A DNA stretch of 64,000 bases from an uncultured Anaerolineae bacterium (GTDB lineage Bacteria; Chloroflexota; Anaerolineae; CG2-30-64-16): contig CAKZKT010000130.1 in NCBI GenBank assembly GCA_937124585.1, positions 1 through 64,000 on the forward strand, given 5' to 3'. Numbering within the stretch: the stretch's first letter is position 1; each line of letters starts with the position of its first letter. A program made the translations under genes and the position numbers. A model generated the notes under the pieces. The model did no database searches, was not told the DNA's origin, and saw nothing but the letters and a program-made list of their open reading frames with translations. Of this stretch, positions 1,521 through 40,228 are shown piece after piece.

Positions 1521-2796
1521 AGACCAGCGTCCGCACCAGGTGATACTGCTTTTTCCCTGTGCGCAGCACCAGGAAACGGCCGCCGATCAACTGGGCCGTG
1601 GAAATGGCCTGGCTCGCGTCTTCGACGCGCACGTTGTTGACGTATACCCCGCCCGCGGCGACCAGACGCCGTCCCTCGCCCTTCGATTTCACCAGCCCTG
1701 CCTCTACCAGCAGGTCGAGGAGCGGCTTGCCCGGCCCCTCGAACGCGATCCTCGGCACCTCGCTGGAGGGCGCCTCCGCGAAGACATCCTCGATCTCGGC
1801 GACGCTCAGGCCCTCGAGGCTGCCGCCGAAGAGCGCCTGCGAGGCTCGCTCAGCATCTGCCAGCGCCTGTTCGCCGTGCACCAGCCGCGTCACCTCGCGC
1901 GCCAGGCGACGCTGTGCCTCGCGCTGCTCGGGACGCTCGCGCACCGCCTGCTCCAGCTCGGCGATCTCCTCGTAGCTCAGCCAGGTGAAGTAGCCGAGGT
2001 AGCAGATCACATCTGCGTCGGCCTGGTTCAGCCAGAACTGGTAGAACCGATACGGCGAGGTACGTTTCGGGTCGAGCCAGATCGTGCCCTGCTCGGTCTT
2101 GCCGAGTTTCACTCCGTCGGCGCCGGTCACCAGCGGGTAGACCAGGCCGTAGGCGCGCATGCCCCGGACACGGCGGATCAGCTCGACGCCGGCCGTGATG
2201 TTGCCCCACTGATCGCTGCCTCCGGCCTGGAGGATGCAGCCGTAACGGTCGAAAAGCTGCAGGAAGTCGTAGGCCTGGAGCAGCATGTAGCTGAATTCGG
2301 TGTATGAGATCCCCTCCTGGCGTTCCAGCCGGGTCTGCACCGAGTCTTTGGCGATCATGTAGTTGACGGTGAAATGCTTGCCCACATCGCGCAGAAAATC
2401 CATCAGCGGGATCGTCGTCAGCCAGTCCGCATTGTTGATGAGGCGGGCCGGATTGCTGCGCACCTCGAAGTCGAGAAAGCGGGTCAGCTGGGCTTTGATC
2501 GCCTCGACATTGGCCGCAATCAACTCCTTGCTTTGCAGCTGGCGTTCCTGCGTCTTGCCGCTCGGGTCACCGATCAGGCCGGTACCGCCGCCCACCAGCG
2601 CGATGGGTGTATGGCCGAAGCGTTGCAGCCGCGCCAGTCCCATCAACGCCAGCAGGTTGCCCACCTGCAGACTGTCGGAGGTCGGGTCGAACCCGATGTA
2701 GGCCGTGACTTTCTGGTTGGCCAGCACTTCGGGCAGCCCTTCGGTGAAACTGTGCACCAGGCCCCGGCGCGCAAAATCATCGAAGACGTTCATCAT
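1519..2796 (-). CDS. tyrS: tyrosyl-tRNA synthetase
   Basis: [46 protein letters not shown] (KMSKS-like); C-terminal S4 domain. Confidence 0.95.
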
Positions 2797-3703
2797 TGTG
2801 TGTGAGCTCCTTTTCCATCCAGTGAGCGAGTTCGGCCTCATCGTGGCCGGTCCAGAGCGCCGCCGAACGCGCACCTTGATATACCAGCATCCCCAGGCCG
2901 TCAATGGCATGGGCACCGGCTGCGGCGGCCAGGCGCAAAAATGGCGTGCGCACATGATAGATCAGATCGTAGACCACCTGGCCCGGCCGCAACGGAACCG
3001 CCGGATCCCACGGCAGCGGGTCGGCGTCGCCATGCAGCCCCAGGCTGGTGGTGTTGACGATCAGGTCGGCGTCGGCTGCCAGTCGGGGCAGCGCCTCTGG
3101 AAACGGATGTGCCGACAGCTCGGCCTTCGGCAGCGCCGCGGCCACCAGCCGGCACAGCGCCTCGGCATGCGCCACCGTCCGGTTGACCACCGCCACGCGC
3201 ACCCCTGCCTCGGCCAGCGCATATACCACGGCTCGCGCCGCCCCGCCCGCACCGATCACCAGCGCACGATGGCCGGGCCCCACGGCGGCAGCATGATCGT
3301 CGCCCTGCCGATTTGCCGGTTTGCCGATCTCTACGCCGTGCGCCCACAGGTCCATCAGAAAGCCATGGCCATCGGTGCTATCTCCCAGCAGCGAACCGTC
3401 TGGCCGGATGACGATCGTGTTGACCGAGCCGGTCGCCGCGGCGATTGGCGTTAGCTCATCCATCAGGGGCACGAGCGCGGCTTTGTGCGGCACGGTAGCA
3501 TTGCAGCCGGCGAACCCCAGCGCGACCAGCCCGCGCACAGCATCGGCCAGCCGTTCCGGTCGCACCGGGAACGGCACGTAGACCCAATCCAGCCCCAGCG
3601 CCGCGAATGCGGCATTATGCATCCGCGGGCTGAGGCTATGCGCTACGGGCCAGCCCATCACGCCGGCCAGACGTGTGGCGCCGGTGATCGGGGGTCTGCT
3701 CAT
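2777..3703 (-). CDS. aroE: shikimate dehydrogenase
   Basis: [55 protein letters not shown]. Confidence 0.95.
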
Positions 3704-5082
3704 TCGCCGTCTCCCGCCCACGCCACATCCGCGCCCAGGCCGCGCATCGTTTCCACGAAGCCCGGAAATGAGTCGCGGATCACGCCGGCATCCAGCACCT
3801 CGGTGGGGCCATCGGCCACGAGGCCGGCGACCGCCAACGACATCGCCAGGCGATGGTCGTGATGGCTGTCCACGAGCGCGCCGTGCAGGCGAGCCGGGCC
3901 GTGAATGCGCATGCCGTCGGGCCGCTCCTCGACATCGGCGCCCATCTTGCGTAGCTCCGTGCAGACCGCCGCGATGCGATCCGACTCTTTCACGCGCAGC
4001 TCGGCTGCATCGCGGATGACGGTCGTCCCGGCCGCTTGCGTTGCGGCGACGGCGAAGATCGGGAACTCGTCAATGGCCCGCACGACGACCTCGCCGCCGA
4101 CCTCGATGCCCGTCAGAGCGCTGCTGCGACCGCTCACCGTCGCCATCGGCTCGCCTGCGGCCGATGCGGGGTGCGTTGCGTCGGTCGGCGGCTGCTCCTC
4201 CATGCCCACCGCCGCGCCCATGGACTCCAGGAGATCGTACAGGCCGGTGCGGGTCGGGTTGACGCCGACGCCGATCAGCCGGACAGCCGAGCTGGGCACG
4301 AGCACGGCCGCCACGAGGGGAAACGCGGCCGAGGAGAAATCGCCGGGCACATCGAGCCGGCCACCGCTGGTCAGTTCCTGCCCGCCACACAGGCGGATGG
4401 TCGCGGCGCTGCCCGTGCGCTGCGATTCGACCACGACGCCGAAATGCGCCAGCATTCGCTCGGTGTGATCGCGCGCCGGGCCGGGCTCGTGCACGATCGT
4501 CTCGCCGGCGGCGAAGAGGCCCGCCAGCAGGATCGCAGATTTGACCTGCGCGCTGGCGACCGGCATGGCGTAATCAATGCCGCGCAGCTGTCCGCCGCGA
4601 ATGGCCAACGGCGGCAAGCGGCCATCCTGACGGCCGAGCACAGTGGCACCCATCAGGCGCAACGGCTCGGCCACGCGGCCCATGGGCCGGCGGCGCAGCG
4701 CTTCGCTGCCGGTCACGATGCTGGTGAAGGGCTGCCCGGCCAGGATGCCGGCCAGCAGGCGGATGGTCGTGCCCGAACCCGCGCAGTCCAGCACGTCGGC
4801 CGGCTCGCGCAGGCCGTGCAGGCCGACGCCGTGCACGGTGAGAATGCCCTGCCAGGCGCCCATGATTTCCGTGAAGCCGGGCGTTTCCTCTACCGTCACG
4901 CCCAGGCTGCGCACGCAGCGCAGGGTGGCCCGGCACACGTCGGCGTCCACCCAACCGTGGATGGTCGTGTCGCCTGTGGCCAGTGCGCTCAGCAGCAGCG
5001 CGCGGTGGCTGATGGATTTGTCGCCGGGCACGCGCGCGATCCCGGCCAGCGGGCCGGAAGGATGAACGATGAGTCGTTGCAT
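3700..5082 (-). CDS. aroA: 3-phosphoshikimate 1-carboxyvinyltransferase
   Basis: VPGDKSISHRALLLSALATGDT; LDCAGSGTTIRLLAGILAGQPF; RVKESDRIAAV; DHRLAMSLAVAGL. Confidence 0.96.
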   Translation of the reverse strand: MQRLIVHPSGPLAGIARVPGDKSISHRALLLSALATGDTTIHGWVDADVCRATLRCVRSLGVTVEETPGFTEIMGAWQGILTVHGVGLHGLREPADVLDCAGSGTTIRLLAGILAGQPFTSIVTGSEALRRRPMGRVAEPLRLMGATVLGRQDGRLPPLAIRGGQLRGIDYAMPVASAQVKSAILLAGLFAAGETIVHEPGPARDHTERMLAHFGVVVESQRTGSAATIRLCGGQELTSGGRLDVPGDFSSAAFPLVAAVLVPSSAVRLIGVGVNPTRTGLYDLLESMGAAVGMEEQPPTDATHPASAAGEPMATVSGRSSALTGIEVGGEVVVRAIDEFPIFAVAATQAAGTTVIRDAAELRVKESDRIAAVCTELRKMGADVEERPDGMRIHGPARLHGALVDSHHDHRLAMSLAVAGLVADGPTEVLDAGVIRDSFPGFVETMRGLGADVAWAGDGE

Positions 5083-5171
5083 GTTCTCGGGCCTTTCTGA
5101 TTTTCGGGCCTTCGGTTTCCTGAGATTGCTGCACGCGGCCACCCGCGTGGCGGAAACTCGAAGGGCGCCAT

Positions 5172-6044
5172 TCAGAAGCGCATGCCGGCGCGTCGCGCCT
5201 GCGCCGTCGCCAGGCAGGCGCGCAGGCCGGTCTCATCGCCGGCGGCCAGGTTGCGCCGCAACTCGGCAAACTGGTCGGCGAAAGCATCCATCCAATCGAG
5301 CAATGCCTCCCGGTTGGTCAGCAGGATGTCGAGCATCATGTCAACATCGCTGGCCGCCACACGGGTGGTGTCCCGAAAGCCCGATGCGGCCAGGGTCCAG
5401 GCCAGCCCATCGCCGGCGCCGTCCACTGCGGCGACCACCGCGGCAGCGACGACGTAGGGCAGATGGCTGATGGCGGCCACCGCGCGATCGTGGGCGAGCG
5501 GATCCACCACCAGGGGCCGGCCGCCCACCGCGGTTGCCAGGTCGTGCGCGGTGGCGAGCGCTTCGGCTGTGGTGCGCGGCAACGGGCAGAGGACGAACGG
5601 CCGCTGGCGATACAGCAATGCGTCGGCCGCGGCGAAACCGGCCGTCTCTTTGCCGCACATCGGATGTGCGCCCACCGGCTGCAGGCCTGCGGGCAGGTCG
5701 GCCATGGCCGCGCAGATCTGCCCCTTGCTGCTGCCCAGGTCCATCACCAGCGTTCCGGGCCGCGCATGGCGGCCGACCTCCGGCAAGAGCCGCAGGATCG
5801 TGCGCACAGGCGTCGCCAGCACGACCAGGTCGGCTTCGGCGACGCCCTGGGCCAGGTCGGTTGTCCCCCGGTCAATGGCGCCGGCCGCGCGGGCCGCGTC
5901 TAGCGTTGTCGCGCTGCGGCTCACTCCGACGATGCGTGCGGCGCGCCAGACGGCAGGCGTCGGATCTGCGCGCAGCGCCAGCGCCAGCGATCCACCCATG
6001 AGACCGAGGCCCGCGATGCAGATGGTAAATGCGTCTTCTGTCAT
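5172..6044 (-). CDS. tyrA: prephenate dehydrogenase
   Basis: IAGLGLMGGSLALALR; LATPVRTILRLLPEV; DLGSSKGQI; GAHPMCGKETAGF. Confidence 0.94.
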   Translation of the reverse strand: MTEDAFTICIAGLGLMGGSLALALRADPTPAVWRAARIVGVSRSATTLDAARAAGAIDRGTTDLAQGVAEADLVVLATPVRTILRLLPEVGRHARPGTLVMDLGSSKGQICAAMADLPAGLQPVGAHPMCGKETAGFAAADALLYRQRPFVLCPLPRTTAEALATAHDLATAVGGRPLVVDPLAHDRAVAAISHLPYVVAAAVVAAVDGAGDGLAWTLAASGFRDTTRVAASDVDMMLDILLTNREALLDWMDAFADQFAELRRNLAAGDETGLRACLATAQARRAGMRF

Positions 6045-6161: not shown

Positions 6162-7175
6162 TCACAACGTCCGACCCACGGCCGGCGCGATCTTGCGCAG
6201 CGAGGCGACGAGCTCGGCGAAGCGTTCGGGTTTGAGCGATTGCGCGCCATCCGACAGCGCCTTGGCCGGGTCGGGATGAACCTCGACCATCAGGCCGTCT
6301 GCGCCGGCGGCAATGCACGCCCGGCCGACCGCCGATACCAGGTCCCATTTGCCCGTGCCGTGGCTCGGATCGCCCAGGACAGGCAGGTGTGTCCAGCCTT
6401 TGACCAGCGGAATGGCGTTGATGTCGAAGGTGTTGCGCGTGGCGGTTTCGAAGGTGCGGATGCCGCGCTCGCAAAGCATCACCTGGCGATTGCCGCCGCT
6501 CAGCACGTAGTCGGCTGAAAGCAGCCATTCCTGCACAGTGTTCATCAGGCCACGCTTGACCATCACCGGTATGCGCGTGCGGCCCACCACCTGGAGCAGC
6601 GGGAAGTTCTGCATGTTGCGCGTGCCGATTTGCAGGATATCGGCATATTTGCTGACAAGCGGCACCTGTTCGGTGGACATCACCTCGGTGATGACCGGCA
6701 GGCCGGTCTCCTCGCGCGCTTCGGCCAGCAGTTCGAGCGCCTCTTCGCCCAGCCCCTGAAAGGAGTAGGGCGAGCTGCGTGGCTTGAACGCACCAGCGCG
6801 CAGGATCATCGCGCCGGCCTCTTTCACCGCCCAGGCGGTCTCCAGCAGCTGGCTGCGGCTCTCCACCGAGCAGGGCCCGGCGATGATCACGATCTGTTGG
6901 CCGCCGATCTGCACGCCGCGCACGTCTACGATCGTGTTCTCCGGGTGAAAATCCCGGCTGGCGAGCTTGAACGGCTGGAGGATGCGCACCACCTGTTCGA
7001 CGCCGGGCAGCAGCTCGAAGTTGTGGCTTTCCAGCGGCCGATCATCGCCCACCACCCCCACGATCGTCCGCTCTGTGCCGTGCGACAGGTGTGCCCGATA
7101 GCCAAACGCCTCGACCTGGCTGACGACGAAACTGATTTCACTGGCGCTGGCCCCGCGTTTCATGACGATGACCAT
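6162..7175 (-). CDS. aroF: 3-deoxy-7-phosphoheptulonate synthase (type I beta)
   Basis: [55 protein letters not shown]-terminal ferredoxin-like regulatory domain. Confidence 0.95.
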
Positions 7176-7300: not shown

Positions 7301-8587
7301 TCACGCAGCCGGATAGCTGCCCAGGAGCTTGACGAAGGCAGCGCGCGTGAGCAGGTTGCTCAGCGCTCGGCTGACGCCCAGGTCCTGGTAATGCCCCTCC
7401 AGGTCTACGTAGAACACGTAATGCCACGGCCGGTTGCGCCGCGGCCGGCTCTCGATTTTGGTCAGGTTGATGCCCCGGTTGGCGAACTCGCCCAGGGCAT
7501 GGTAAAGTGCGCCCGGCGTGTGCGACGTCGCGAAGACGATGGATGTCTTGTTGCGCGCGGCCGGCGGCAGCTCTTCGCGGCCGAGCACGAAGAAGCGCGT
7601 GGTGTTCTCCGGCGAATCTTCGATGCCGATGTCGAGCACGTCCAGGCCGTAGATTTTGCCGGCCAAGGCGCTGGCGATGGCGGCCCGGCCCGGGATCGGA
7701 TACGCTGCCAGCTCGCGCGCGGCGCCTGCCGTGTCGTAGCTTGGCACAGCCTCCCAGCCGCGCGTGCGCAGATAGCGCTCGCATTGGGCCAGCGCCTGCG
7801 GATGCGACTGGACGCTCTGGATGTCGGCGGCTGTAACGCCCGGCGGAACGAGCAAGCAATGGCGCACGCGCAGCTTCACCTCGCCGATGACGCGCAGGTC
7901 GTGATCCAGGAGCAGGTCGTAGGCCTGGTTGATGGAGCCGGCCTGTGAGTTTTCCACGGGCAGCACGCCATGGGTGGCGCGGCCCTCCTCGATGGCCTTG
8001 AAGATCTCCTCGAAGCTGTGGCAGGCCAGCGTGTTCACCAGATCGCCGAAGTGCTGATGGGCTGCTTCCTGGGAATAGGCGCCGGGCTCGCCCTGATAGG
8101 CGACGATGGTTTTGGTGCTGGGTGTGACTGCGGCGGCGGGGCGGGGGGCCGGCGGCGGGGCGACGGGCTCGGCGGCTTGACGGGCGCTGCCGTTGCCGGC
8201 CAGGGGCATCGCGATGATGCCGCTTTCGGGGGCCAGGTCGGGCCGCAGTGCAGCTGCTTCGCGCAGGTAGCCGTGCTGGATCGCTTCGAGTGGCCGATCG
8301 GTGTTCCAGTGAATCAAGACGCGGATGCAGCGCGGGAGCGCGCTGGGCACGGGGATCTCGATGGTGTCCAGGAGGGGCACCTCGGTCCAGCCGAGCTGTC
8401 GGGCCGCCCGGGCGGGAAAGGTCGCGTTCAGATCGGGGGTGACCGAAAAGACGATGCTGGCGATATCGGCCGGCCGCAGTTCATTGGCGGCTGCGAGCCA
8501 GCGCAACAGCTCTTCGGTGGCATCGAGAATGGCGGTCTCAGTGTTGTCGGCGGCGGTCGTCGCGCCGCGAATACCTCGGACGGGCAT
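7301..8587 (-). CDS. pheA: fused AroH-type chorismate mutase and prephenate dehydratase with ACT domain
   Basis: N-term [28 protein letters not shown]...[26 protein letters not shown]...[10 protein letters not shown] is AroH-like; C-term [20 protein letters not shown]...[20 protein letters not shown] plus ACT. Confidence 0.93.
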
Positions 8588-8618
8588 ACGCACTCCTCCA
8601 TGAAATGGGATATTTAAC

Positions 8619-8645
8619 AAAAAGAGCGTGGATTGCTCCACGCTC
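8619..8645 (-). terminator. intrinsic terminator in the leader of the aroH-pheA operon
   Basis: minus strand GAGCGTGGA-GCAA-TCCACGCTC-TTTTTGTT: perfect 9-bp stem plus U-tract, about 30 nt upstream of the aroH-pheA start. Confidence 0.9.
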
Positions 8646-8675
8646 CGGTTCGCTGCTTTGACGATTTCAGGGGGC

Positions 8676-8786
8676 TCAGACGATCTGTCCCTCCCCCGGC
8701 GCGCGAGCTTCTCTCCGAAGGATCGGATAATAATAAAAGTAGAAGCTAAACGAGAAGCCGCGCTTTGGGTTCATGTTAGTTTTCAT
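8676..8786 (-). CDS. 36-aa Phe/Tyr-rich attenuator leader peptide
   Basis: [36 protein letters not shown]; 8 of 10 consecutive codons are Phe or Tyr; purine-rich AGGATAGG just upstream; below the ORF-track length cutoff. Confidence 0.85.
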
Positions 8787-8804: not shown

Positions 8805-8834
8805 ATATTACCATCGGTCTGCGGAGTTTGTCAA
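8805..8834 (-). promoter_or_regulatory. sigma70-like promoter for the Phe/Tyr operon
   Basis: minus strand TTGACA-N18-TAATAT, just upstream of the leader ORF. Confidence 0.65.
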
Positions 8835-8865: not shown

Positions 8866-8894
8866 TTGACAGCGCATTTCAACCCGGGTACAAT
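8866..8894 (+). promoter_or_regulatory. sigma70-like promoter for the URO-D gene
   Basis: TTGACA-N17-TACAAT; divergent from the leader promoter. Confidence 0.7.
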
Positions 8895-8978: not shown

Positions 8979-10118
8979 ATGCCCAAAGAAACCATGACCC
9001 CCCGTGAGCGCTGGTTGGCGGTGCTCACGCGCCAGAAACCCGATCGCGTGCCGATGGATTATTGGGGCACGCTCGAGGCGACCGCTAGGCTGATCCGTCA
9101 CCTCGGCCTGAGCAGTGACAGTGAAGCCGCTTTGGTGGCGGCATTCAAGACGGGCGGGCAACGGGCCCGCCTGGGCAGGCGACCGATTGACCGGCTGCGT
9201 CGGCAGATGCTTGACCGGCTGCATGTGGACTATGTCGTGACGGTCGGCCCGCGTTACGTGGGCCCCAGGCTGCCGCCCAACACCGACGTATTCGGTTGTC
9301 GCTACCGCAATGTCGAGTATGGCACCGGCATTTATGGCGAGTGCGTCTATCATCCGCTGGCACACTACACCTCAGTGGAGGAGATCGCGCGCAACTACCG
9401 CTGGCCGGACCCGGACTGGTGGGATTACAGCGAGATTCCCGAGCAGATCAAGGGCTGGGAACAGCACCCCATCCGCGGCGGCGGGTCTGAGCCGTTCCTG
9501 ATCTATAAAAATCTGCGCGGTCAGGAACGGGCGTTCATGGATCTCGTCGAGCATCCGGAGATCGTCCACTACTGCCTGGACAAGCTCTTCGACCTGGCGT
9601 ACATCAACACCCAGCGCATCTACGAACAGATCCCAGGCCAGGTGATGATCACCTACGTGGCCGAGGACATGGGCGCCCAGGAAGGCCTGATGTTTTCGGT
9701 CAAGCATATTCGGGAGTTCCTGCTGCCGCGCATGAAGCGCATCATTGATCTGGCCCACAGCGCGGGCGCCTATGTGTTTCATCATAACGACGGCGCGGTG
9801 CGCAAGATCCTGCCGGACATGATCGCGCTGGGCATTGACGTGCTCAACCCGATCCAATGGCGCTGCAAGGGGATGGAGCGGGAAGGGCTGAAGCGAGACT
9901 TTGGCGAGAAGCTGATCTTCCACGGTGCCATGGACAATCAGTACACCCTCCCGTTTGGCACGGTGGACGAGGTACGCCAGGAGGTGCTCGATAACCTGCG
10001 CATCCTCGGCGCGGGCGGTGGCTATATCTTGGCCCCCTGCCATAACATCCAGGCCGTCAGCCCGCCGGAGAACATCGCAGCGATGTATGAGACGGGGTAC
10101 GAGCATGGCTGGATGTAA
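8979..10118 (+). CDS. uroporphyrinogen decarboxylase-family (URO-D) protein
   Basis: MTPRERWLAVLTRQKPDRVPMDYWG...FHHNDGAVRKILPDMIALGIDVLNPIQ...GAGGGYILAPCHNIQAVSPPENI. Confidence 0.85.
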   Translation: MPKETMTPRERWLAVLTRQKPDRVPMDYWGTLEATARLIRHLGLSSDSEAALVAAFKTGGQRARLGRRPIDRLRRQMLDRLHVDYVVTVGPRYVGPRLPPNTDVFGCRYRNVEYGTGIYGECVYHPLAHYTSVEEIARNYRWPDPDWWDYSEIPEQIKGWEQHPIRGGGSEPFLIYKNLRGQERAFMDLVEHPEIVHYCLDKLFDLAYINTQRIYEQIPGQVMITYVAEDMGAQEGLMFSVKHIREFLLPRMKRIIDLAHSAGAYVFHHNDGAVRKILPDMIALGIDVLNPIQWRCKGMEREGLKRDFGEKLIFHGAMDNQYTLPFGTVDEVRQEVLDNLRILGAGGGYILAPCHNIQAVSPPENIAAMYETGYEHGWM

Positions 10119-20957: not shown

Positions 20958-21029
20958 AGCGGGTAAGGGGATTCGAACCCCTGACATTCAGCTTGGGAAG
21001 CTGACGTTCTACCGCTGAACTATACCCGC
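20958..21029 (-). tRNA. tRNA-Gly(CCC)
   Basis: minus strand GCGGGTATAGTTCAGCGGTAGAACGTCAGCTTCCCAAGCTGAATGTCAGGGGTTCGAATCCCCTTACCCGCT; 7-bp acceptor stem, anticodon loop TTCCCAA. Confidence 0.95.
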
Positions 21030-40083: not shown

Positions 40084-40107
40084 AAAAATACAAATTAAAA
40101 GAATACC

Positions 40108-40196
40108 GGAACGGGGGAGCCGGGAGGGTCCGGCTGAGAGGAGGGCAGATGCCCCGACCCCTTGAACCTGACCTGGGTAATGCCAGCGTAGGGAGC
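40108..40196 (+). promoter_or_regulatory. TPP riboswitch (THI element)
   Basis: acGGGGGAGCCgggagggtccGGCTGAGAGGagggcagatgcCCCGACCCCTTGAACCTGACCTGGGTAATGCCAGCGTAGGGA. Confidence 0.97.
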
Positions 40197-40228
40197 TTCC
40201 ACTAACTTGCCATTGCAAGTCAGAATCA

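Follow-up and report, generated by a model that had tools for sequence, protein, structure and literature searches.

Gene organization of the locus

The window analysed here, a stretch of 64,000 nucleotides from an uncultured Anaerolineae bacterium of the phylum Chloroflexota, carries on its minus strand a run of aromatic amino acid genes preceded by a short leader. The first structural gene, aroH-pheA (7301-8587), is a single fused gene of 428 codons that encodes a type I chorismate mutase (TIGR01796, PF07736) and a prephenate dehydratase with an ACT domain, and it begins approximately 30 nt past the U-run of the leader terminator. An initial interpretation of this DNA made before any database search (the sequence-only reading) had placed aroH-pheA directly after the terminator; that position holds, with the clarification that one fused gene is involved. 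Downstream lie an aroF-type DAHP synthase gene (6162-7175), a tyrA-type prephenate dehydrogenase gene (5172-6044), aroA, encoding 3-phosphoshikimate 1-carboxyvinyltransferase (3700-5079, start inferred within the ORF 3700-5142), aroE, encoding shikimate dehydrogenase (2777-3670, start inferred), and tyrS, encoding tyrosine--tRNA ligase (1519-2790, start inferred). This annotation agrees with the original proposal that the operon yields both Phe and Tyr as well as TyrRS.

No promoter-like site was found on the minus strand from the leader down to position 1005, beyond tyrS, and, apart from the leader terminator, no minus-strand terminator-like site was found until 750. A single transcript from aroH-pheA to tyrS is therefore plausible, though less than certain given the gaps of approximately 90-125 nt between the first operon genes, and we infer co-transcription over this interval.

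In the usual enteric P-protein the mutase part is of the AroQ type; the fusion at 7301-8587 differs from it, and from enteric pheA, in using a type I (AroH) mutase. The aroH-pheA fusion was found in close relatives; more distant relatives have aroH as a separate gene.

Leader anatomy

A consensus scan located a σ70-like promoter, TTGACA-18-TAATAT with a TG extension, at 8805-8834 on the minus strand, from which transcription is expected to start at approximately 8798; TTGACA and TAT.AT boxes repeat at the same place in the leaders of other family members. A strong promoter-like site on the plus strand, TTGACA-17-TACAAT at 8866-8894, points away from the leader and faces a gene for a URO-D/MtaA-like methyltransferase at approximately 9015-10118.

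The leader peptide ORF (minus strand, 8786-8676 including the stop) comprises 36 codons, with AGGATAGG immediately 5' of its ATG at 8786, its last sense base at 8679 and a TGA stop at 8678-8676. Translation places 4 Phe and 4 Tyr codons within 10 codons at 8727-8756, confirming the ORF and the control codons that had been proposed. Three further elements of the minus strand, identified by folding, define two alternative pairings with the same coordinates as in the sequence-only reading. Segment 1, GCGCGGCUUCUC (8752-8763), pairs with segment 2, GAGAAGCUCGCGCGCCGG (8696-8713), as an anti-antiterminator, supported by fold, shuffles and co-variation; segment 3, CCGGAGCGUGGAGC (8635-8648), supported by fold and by duplex comparisons with shuffles, is the partner of segment 2 in the antiterminator or of segment 4 in the terminator. 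Fold and helix analysis showed segment 2 to be common to the 1:2 pairing (8763-8752 with 8713-8701) and the 2:3 pairing (8708-8696 with 8648-8635), which overlap at 8708-8701. The leader ORF extends through and beyond segment 2.

The intrinsic terminator formed by segments 3:4 (8618-8646, minus strand, -17.6 kcal/mol) consists of a hairpin at 8646-8623 followed by TTTTT, and lies 29 nt from the leader stop. The GCAA loop and TTTTT described earlier for this terminator are present, but its stem contains 10 base pairs rather than 9.

The leader ORF is unusual in its composition. It was the sole F/Y-rich short ORF (at least 5 F/Y of 10 codons, with both residues present) among the 128,000 strand-bases of the window, and it has 8 F/Y residues in 10 codons, where no stop-free segment reached 7 or more in 2.56 Mb of random sequence generated by an order-3 Markov model built from the window. 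The idea that a Phe/Tyr-rich stretch merely happens to precede a terminator has a negligible probability on these grounds, and is already refuted by the comparative data described below, in which the leader recurs before aroH across the phylum.

Searches with Rfam leader families (the Phe leader and others) and with the T-box model gave no match to the leader at the gathering score, nor at E values up to 10. In other phyla such operons are often under the control of a T-box or riboswitch, and a T-box or metabolite riboswitch here would make the ORF incidental; the lack of any Rfam family match, a leader too short for a T-box, and the fact that what is conserved is the ORF content make this exceedingly improbable. 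Elsewhere in the window, Rfam models identified a TPP riboswitch at 40103-40212 on the plus strand (RF00059, 69.9 bits) and a tRNA gene at 20958-21029 on the minus strand (RF00005).

Conservation of the leader across Chloroflexota

GTDB representative genomes were scanned with the AroH-PheA protein, yielding 79 loci, mainly from Chloroflexota (Anaerolineae, Caldilineaceae), and searching whole genomes from the window's class, family and phylum added further loci. The first set comprised 84 non-redundant aroH upstream regions, approximately 72 of them from Chloroflexota, and 63 of these ~72 contain an F+Y leader plus terminator, with 21-57 nt between the run and the stop and 20-46 nt between the stop and the terminator. 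An additional 22 leaders came from other families, some outside the class of the window (f70, f80, f93, f106, f109), bringing the total for Chloroflexota to 85 leaders, which span many families and more than one class. In 23 divergent representatives, the end of the control run lies 24-54 nt from the stop and the stop 21-45 nt from the terminator. At several additional loci the ORF is present and no hairpin was called.

The leader peptides cannot be aligned except at the control run, examples of which are FAFYFYY, AYYYFYF, GFYFGYYF, FFFFSFYYFY, RYYYYPNCI and FSFGNFWFGYYF. Over 0.95 Mb strand-bases of aroH loci, 56 short ORFs reached the F/Y threshold; 43 of these have a terminator, and nearly all of the 43 precede aroH. 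No leader was found at the stricter setting in 12 non-Chloroflexota aroH loci (Planctomycetota, Deltaproteobacteria, unassigned bacteria), and many sampled genomes of other classes lacked such a leader. Two Planctomycetota matches obtained at a looser setting (L050, L054) were rejected as chance, having weak hairpins, distant spacing and unrelated peptides.

One JACQYF genome carries two near-alike aromatic leaders with terminators, STYAFYFYAYFF and STYAFYFFGYFY, on two contigs (L023 and L047). The second sits approximately 700 nt upstream of its aroH, and is maybe a duplicated or differently placed attenuator.

Both Phe and Tyr are present in the control run of all 85 leaders, and over the 23 representatives their totals are balanced (F:Y 78:77). 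The filter that picked the runs counted F, Y and W together, with neither F nor Y explicitly required alongside the other; the second leader set required at least 3 F/Y. The occurrence of both residues in every run is what would be expected of the predicted dual sensing, in which a shortage of either product should open the operon. A different reading of the same composition is that attenuation senses general translation speed, or one amino acid only, and that the mixed run arose by hydrophobic or codon drift. One residue does dominate in some lineages (e.g., RYYYYPNCI, YYYF), but the invariable presence of both, their balanced totals, and an operon that makes both amino acids together with TyrRS render this reading unlikely in comparison with dual Phe/Tyr control. 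In the thr and ilvGMEDA leaders of enteric bacteria, a single peptide likewise carries several control amino acids, all of them operon products; the Chloroflexota leaders share this property and differ in the amino acids, genes, phylum and sequence.

Trp is also found in the control runs of 8 of the 23 representatives. Trp-containing runs at loci L010-L013, L091-L101 and L096-L107 (FSFGNFWFGYYF, WRGFYFGYF, YWRYYFYYF) hint at a possible three-way aromatic sensing in some lineages.

Alternative RNA structures

The full leader of the window folds at -66.2 kcal/mol (z -3.8; none of 200 shuffles equal), and its minimum-energy structure is 1:2 plus 3:4, that is, the termination form. The 1:2 pairing (-24.2 kcal/mol) was equalled by none of 200 shuffles. 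The 2:3 duplex is only moderately unusual, beating 97.5% of shuffles (p 0.025), and its pairing in the stalled state gave p 0.12 against shuffles; forced 2:3 pairing with inner helices reaches -31.0 kcal/mol vs -17.6 for 3:4, over different spans. The strength of the window's own antiterminator, as modelled, is moderate. At equilibrium the terminator is favoured even in the stalled state (0.95), so readthrough must depend on co-transcriptional timing. Equilibrium folding was accordingly set aside for judging whether the window's leader switches, being uninformative on timing when the terminator always wins. Kinetic switching is usual for attenuators, and on the folding model switching in the window leader would have to be kinetic.

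Across the 63 leaders of the first set, the duplex between the region after the control codons and the terminator 5' arm (2:3) has a mean z of -2.3 against shuffles, with p<=0.05 in 38 of 63, and pairing between the regions before and after the control codons (1:2) has a mean z of -1.4, with p<=0.05 in 20 of 63. The terminator 5' arm is paired upstream more in the stalled than in the at-stop state in 57 of 63 leaders, and the reverse was observed in none. Part of this contrast is trivial, since a stalled ribosome leaves more RNA free, and shuffled controls reduce it to 0.67 against 0.54.

Defining 1:2 and 2:3 by the longest gap-free helix was tried and rejected: by this definition the two overlap in only 10 of 23 representatives, and bulged helices are missed, including the window's own 2:3. 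For this reason the duplex comparison and an exchange test were adopted. In the exchange test, cognate partners were compared with swapped partners among 23 representatives of less than 70% identity, which are still related by descent. Relative to the expectation from swapped partners, cognate pairing gained 4.6 kcal/mol for 2:3 and 6.2 kcal/mol for 1:2, each with a permutation p of approximately 5e-5. The 2:3 helices include UGAUGUUCCGCGC/GCGUGGAGCAUCA, GGCUCCAUGC/GCGUGGAGCC, GUCUCCGC/GUGGAGAC and CCGUUGGCCUUGCGU/AUGCGAGGCCGACGG, and compensation within helices is seen where GCGUGGAGCC is partnered by GGCUCCGCGC or GGCUCCAUGC, GCGUGGAGCAG by CUGCUUCACGC, GUGGAGAC by GUCUCCGC, and AUGCGAGGCCGACGG by CCGUUGGCCUUGCGU. 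Folding and co-variation thus support both pairings of the switchable fold first proposed for the window. Loss of the Phe/Tyr ORF or of compensatory changes in orthologous leaders had been named as grounds for abandoning the proposal, and the comparison gave neither, every leader retaining both residues and both pairings co-varying.

Because the terminator needs only 3:4, co-variation between segments 3 and 2 would be difficult to account for if there were no antiterminator. This bears on a further possibility, that the leader ORF is translated while control is exerted by Rho or through aroH translation, the hairpin being an ordinary terminator. Such an account draws on the great stability of the window terminator, scarcely disturbed by stalling at equilibrium, but a plain terminator has no need of a 5' arm that co-varies with the post-control segment across lineages, and one placed between promoter and operon would merely lower expression. 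We regard this account as very unlikely.

Ribosome position and proposed mechanism

The positions of a translating ribosome were estimated from an assumed footprint of approximately 13 nt downstream of the start of the A-site codon and 18 nt upstream. With the last Tyr codon in the A site, the ribosome covers the leader to approximately 8716, and segment 2 starts at 8713; since coverage ends there, a stall at the control codons removes segment 1 and frees segment 2. These positions are compatible with the earlier suggestion that a stalled ribosome masks segment 1 and permits antitermination. A ribosome at the stop covers approximately 8696-8665, and segment 2 ends at 8696. In the textbook trp leader, whose stop falls between segments 1 and 2, segment 2 is hidden by a ribosome that has reached the stop; in the window leader such a ribosome sits just past segment 2. 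The companion suggestion, that segment 2 is masked at this stage, therefore fails, and termination would come about through re-formation of 1:2 or because the ribosome is passing over segment 2 during synthesis of segments 3 and 4.

The leader combines a short ORF near the transcript 5' end that is rich in codons for the operon products, an intrinsic terminator between this ORF and the first structural gene, an antiterminator (2:3) that competes for the terminator 5' arm and co-varies in 23 divergent leaders, and a 1:2 hairpin, weaker in some single sequences, that a ribosome at the control codons could block. This anatomy and its conservation, together with pairings that co-vary and exclude one another and a spacing compatible with the ribosome footprint, argue strongly that the aromatic amino acid operon is controlled by ribosome-mediated transcription attenuation, with both Phe and Tyr codons of the leader serving as control codons, and we hold this to be very probable. 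The mechanism of the sequence-only reading is right in substance.

From these features we infer stalling, its timing and a response to each amino acid, as follows. Under a shortage of Phe-tRNA or Tyr-tRNA, the leading ribosome would stall at the F/Y run (8756-8727), covering segment 1. Segment 2 (8713-8696), left free, would pair with segment 3 (8648-8635) on its emergence from the polymerase, pre-empting the terminator and allowing transcription of aroH-pheA through tyrS. With an ample supply of both charged tRNAs, the ribosome would translate across segment 2 and reach the stop at 8678; its passage would first cover segment 2, which would then re-pair with segment 1, leaving segment 3 to pair with segment 4, and transcription would end at the U-run.

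Comparison with known attenuators

Amino-acid leader-peptide attenuation is known chiefly from Proteobacteria. In enteric bacteria the pheA (pheL) leader, with its Phe-rich ORF, 1:2, 2:3 and 3:4 pairings and intrinsic terminator, controls the chorismate mutase/prephenate dehydratase. The Chloroflexota leader resembles the enteric pheL and pheST leaders in having alternative 1:2, 2:3 and 3:4 pairings and an intrinsic terminator behind a Phe-rich ORF. Unlike pheL, it contains Phe and Tyr codons in approximately equal numbers, its ORF overruns segment 2 rather than ending between segments 1 and 2, its operon also includes aroF, tyrA, aroA, aroE and tyrS, and it has no sequence or Rfam match and belongs to another phylum. 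The pheA operon has been counted among attenuated operons (PMC1183508).

Outside Proteobacteria, leader-peptide attenuators have been reported in Actinobacteria for trp, ilv and leuS, in a survey that saw no RNA structure conserved ahead of Phe or Tyr operons (PMC1262725), and in Firmicutes for hisS/hisZ (PMC2965389) and later for his operons (PMC9413887). A survey of 2010 stated that, before its own Firmicutes case, Proteobacteria and Actinobacteria were the only groups with demonstrated examples (PMC2965389), and another paper treats Chloroflexi solely as a group whose genomes were too few (PMC4833913). As in the Chloroflexota leader, leader peptide, antiterminator and terminator in these cases were predicted computationally outside Proteobacteria; none concerns Phe/Tyr operons or Chloroflexota (PMC1262725, PMC2965389, PMC9413887). 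In the openly readable literature we found no published Phe/Tyr attenuator, nor leader-peptide attenuation of any other kind, for Chloroflexota, prior mention in subscription attenuation surveys being possible. Within openly readable papers, this agrees with the sequence-only reading, which had described the mechanism as established in Proteobacteria and knew of no case in this kind of bacterium. What appears new, on that literature, is the phylum, the mixed Phe/Tyr control and the ORF that overruns segment 2; the type of mechanism was already known.

Probable attenuation in Chloroflexota

At least four genomes of the window's family have, upstream of ilvB, a leader rich in Ile, Leu and Val that is followed by a terminator of its own. 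The upstream regions of four such genomes (L207, L209, L212, L213; approximately 1159-1400 in each) contain a leader ORF, e.g., GLVIVLISVLLSLSLMEPLPVGRT, followed by the terminator GGGCCTCCC...GGGAGGCCC, and together these look like a second, branched-chain attenuator. Because this leader precedes ilvB, attenuation is probably more widely used in the family. No leaders with Trp, His or Phe runs were found before trpE, hisG and pheS in the family.

A covariance model and comparative tests can start from the more than 80 divergent leaders, and cultured Chloroflexia may permit direct experiments. The leader sequence is fast-changing, yet its Phe/Tyr content is strictly kept and its pairings co-vary, and the run balanced between Phe and Tyr would suit a branched pathway as a natural sensor with two inputs. 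The same logic in a deeply divergent phylum bears on whether attenuation had a single or a repeated origin. We lean, by a small measure, toward a device shared across the whole phylum Chloroflexota. Its single leader peptide would report on Phe and Tyr supply jointly, and in some lineages on Trp as well; aromatic amino acid synthesis in the phylum would be governed mainly by this device, which would belong to a broader reliance on leader-peptide attenuation among Chloroflexota.
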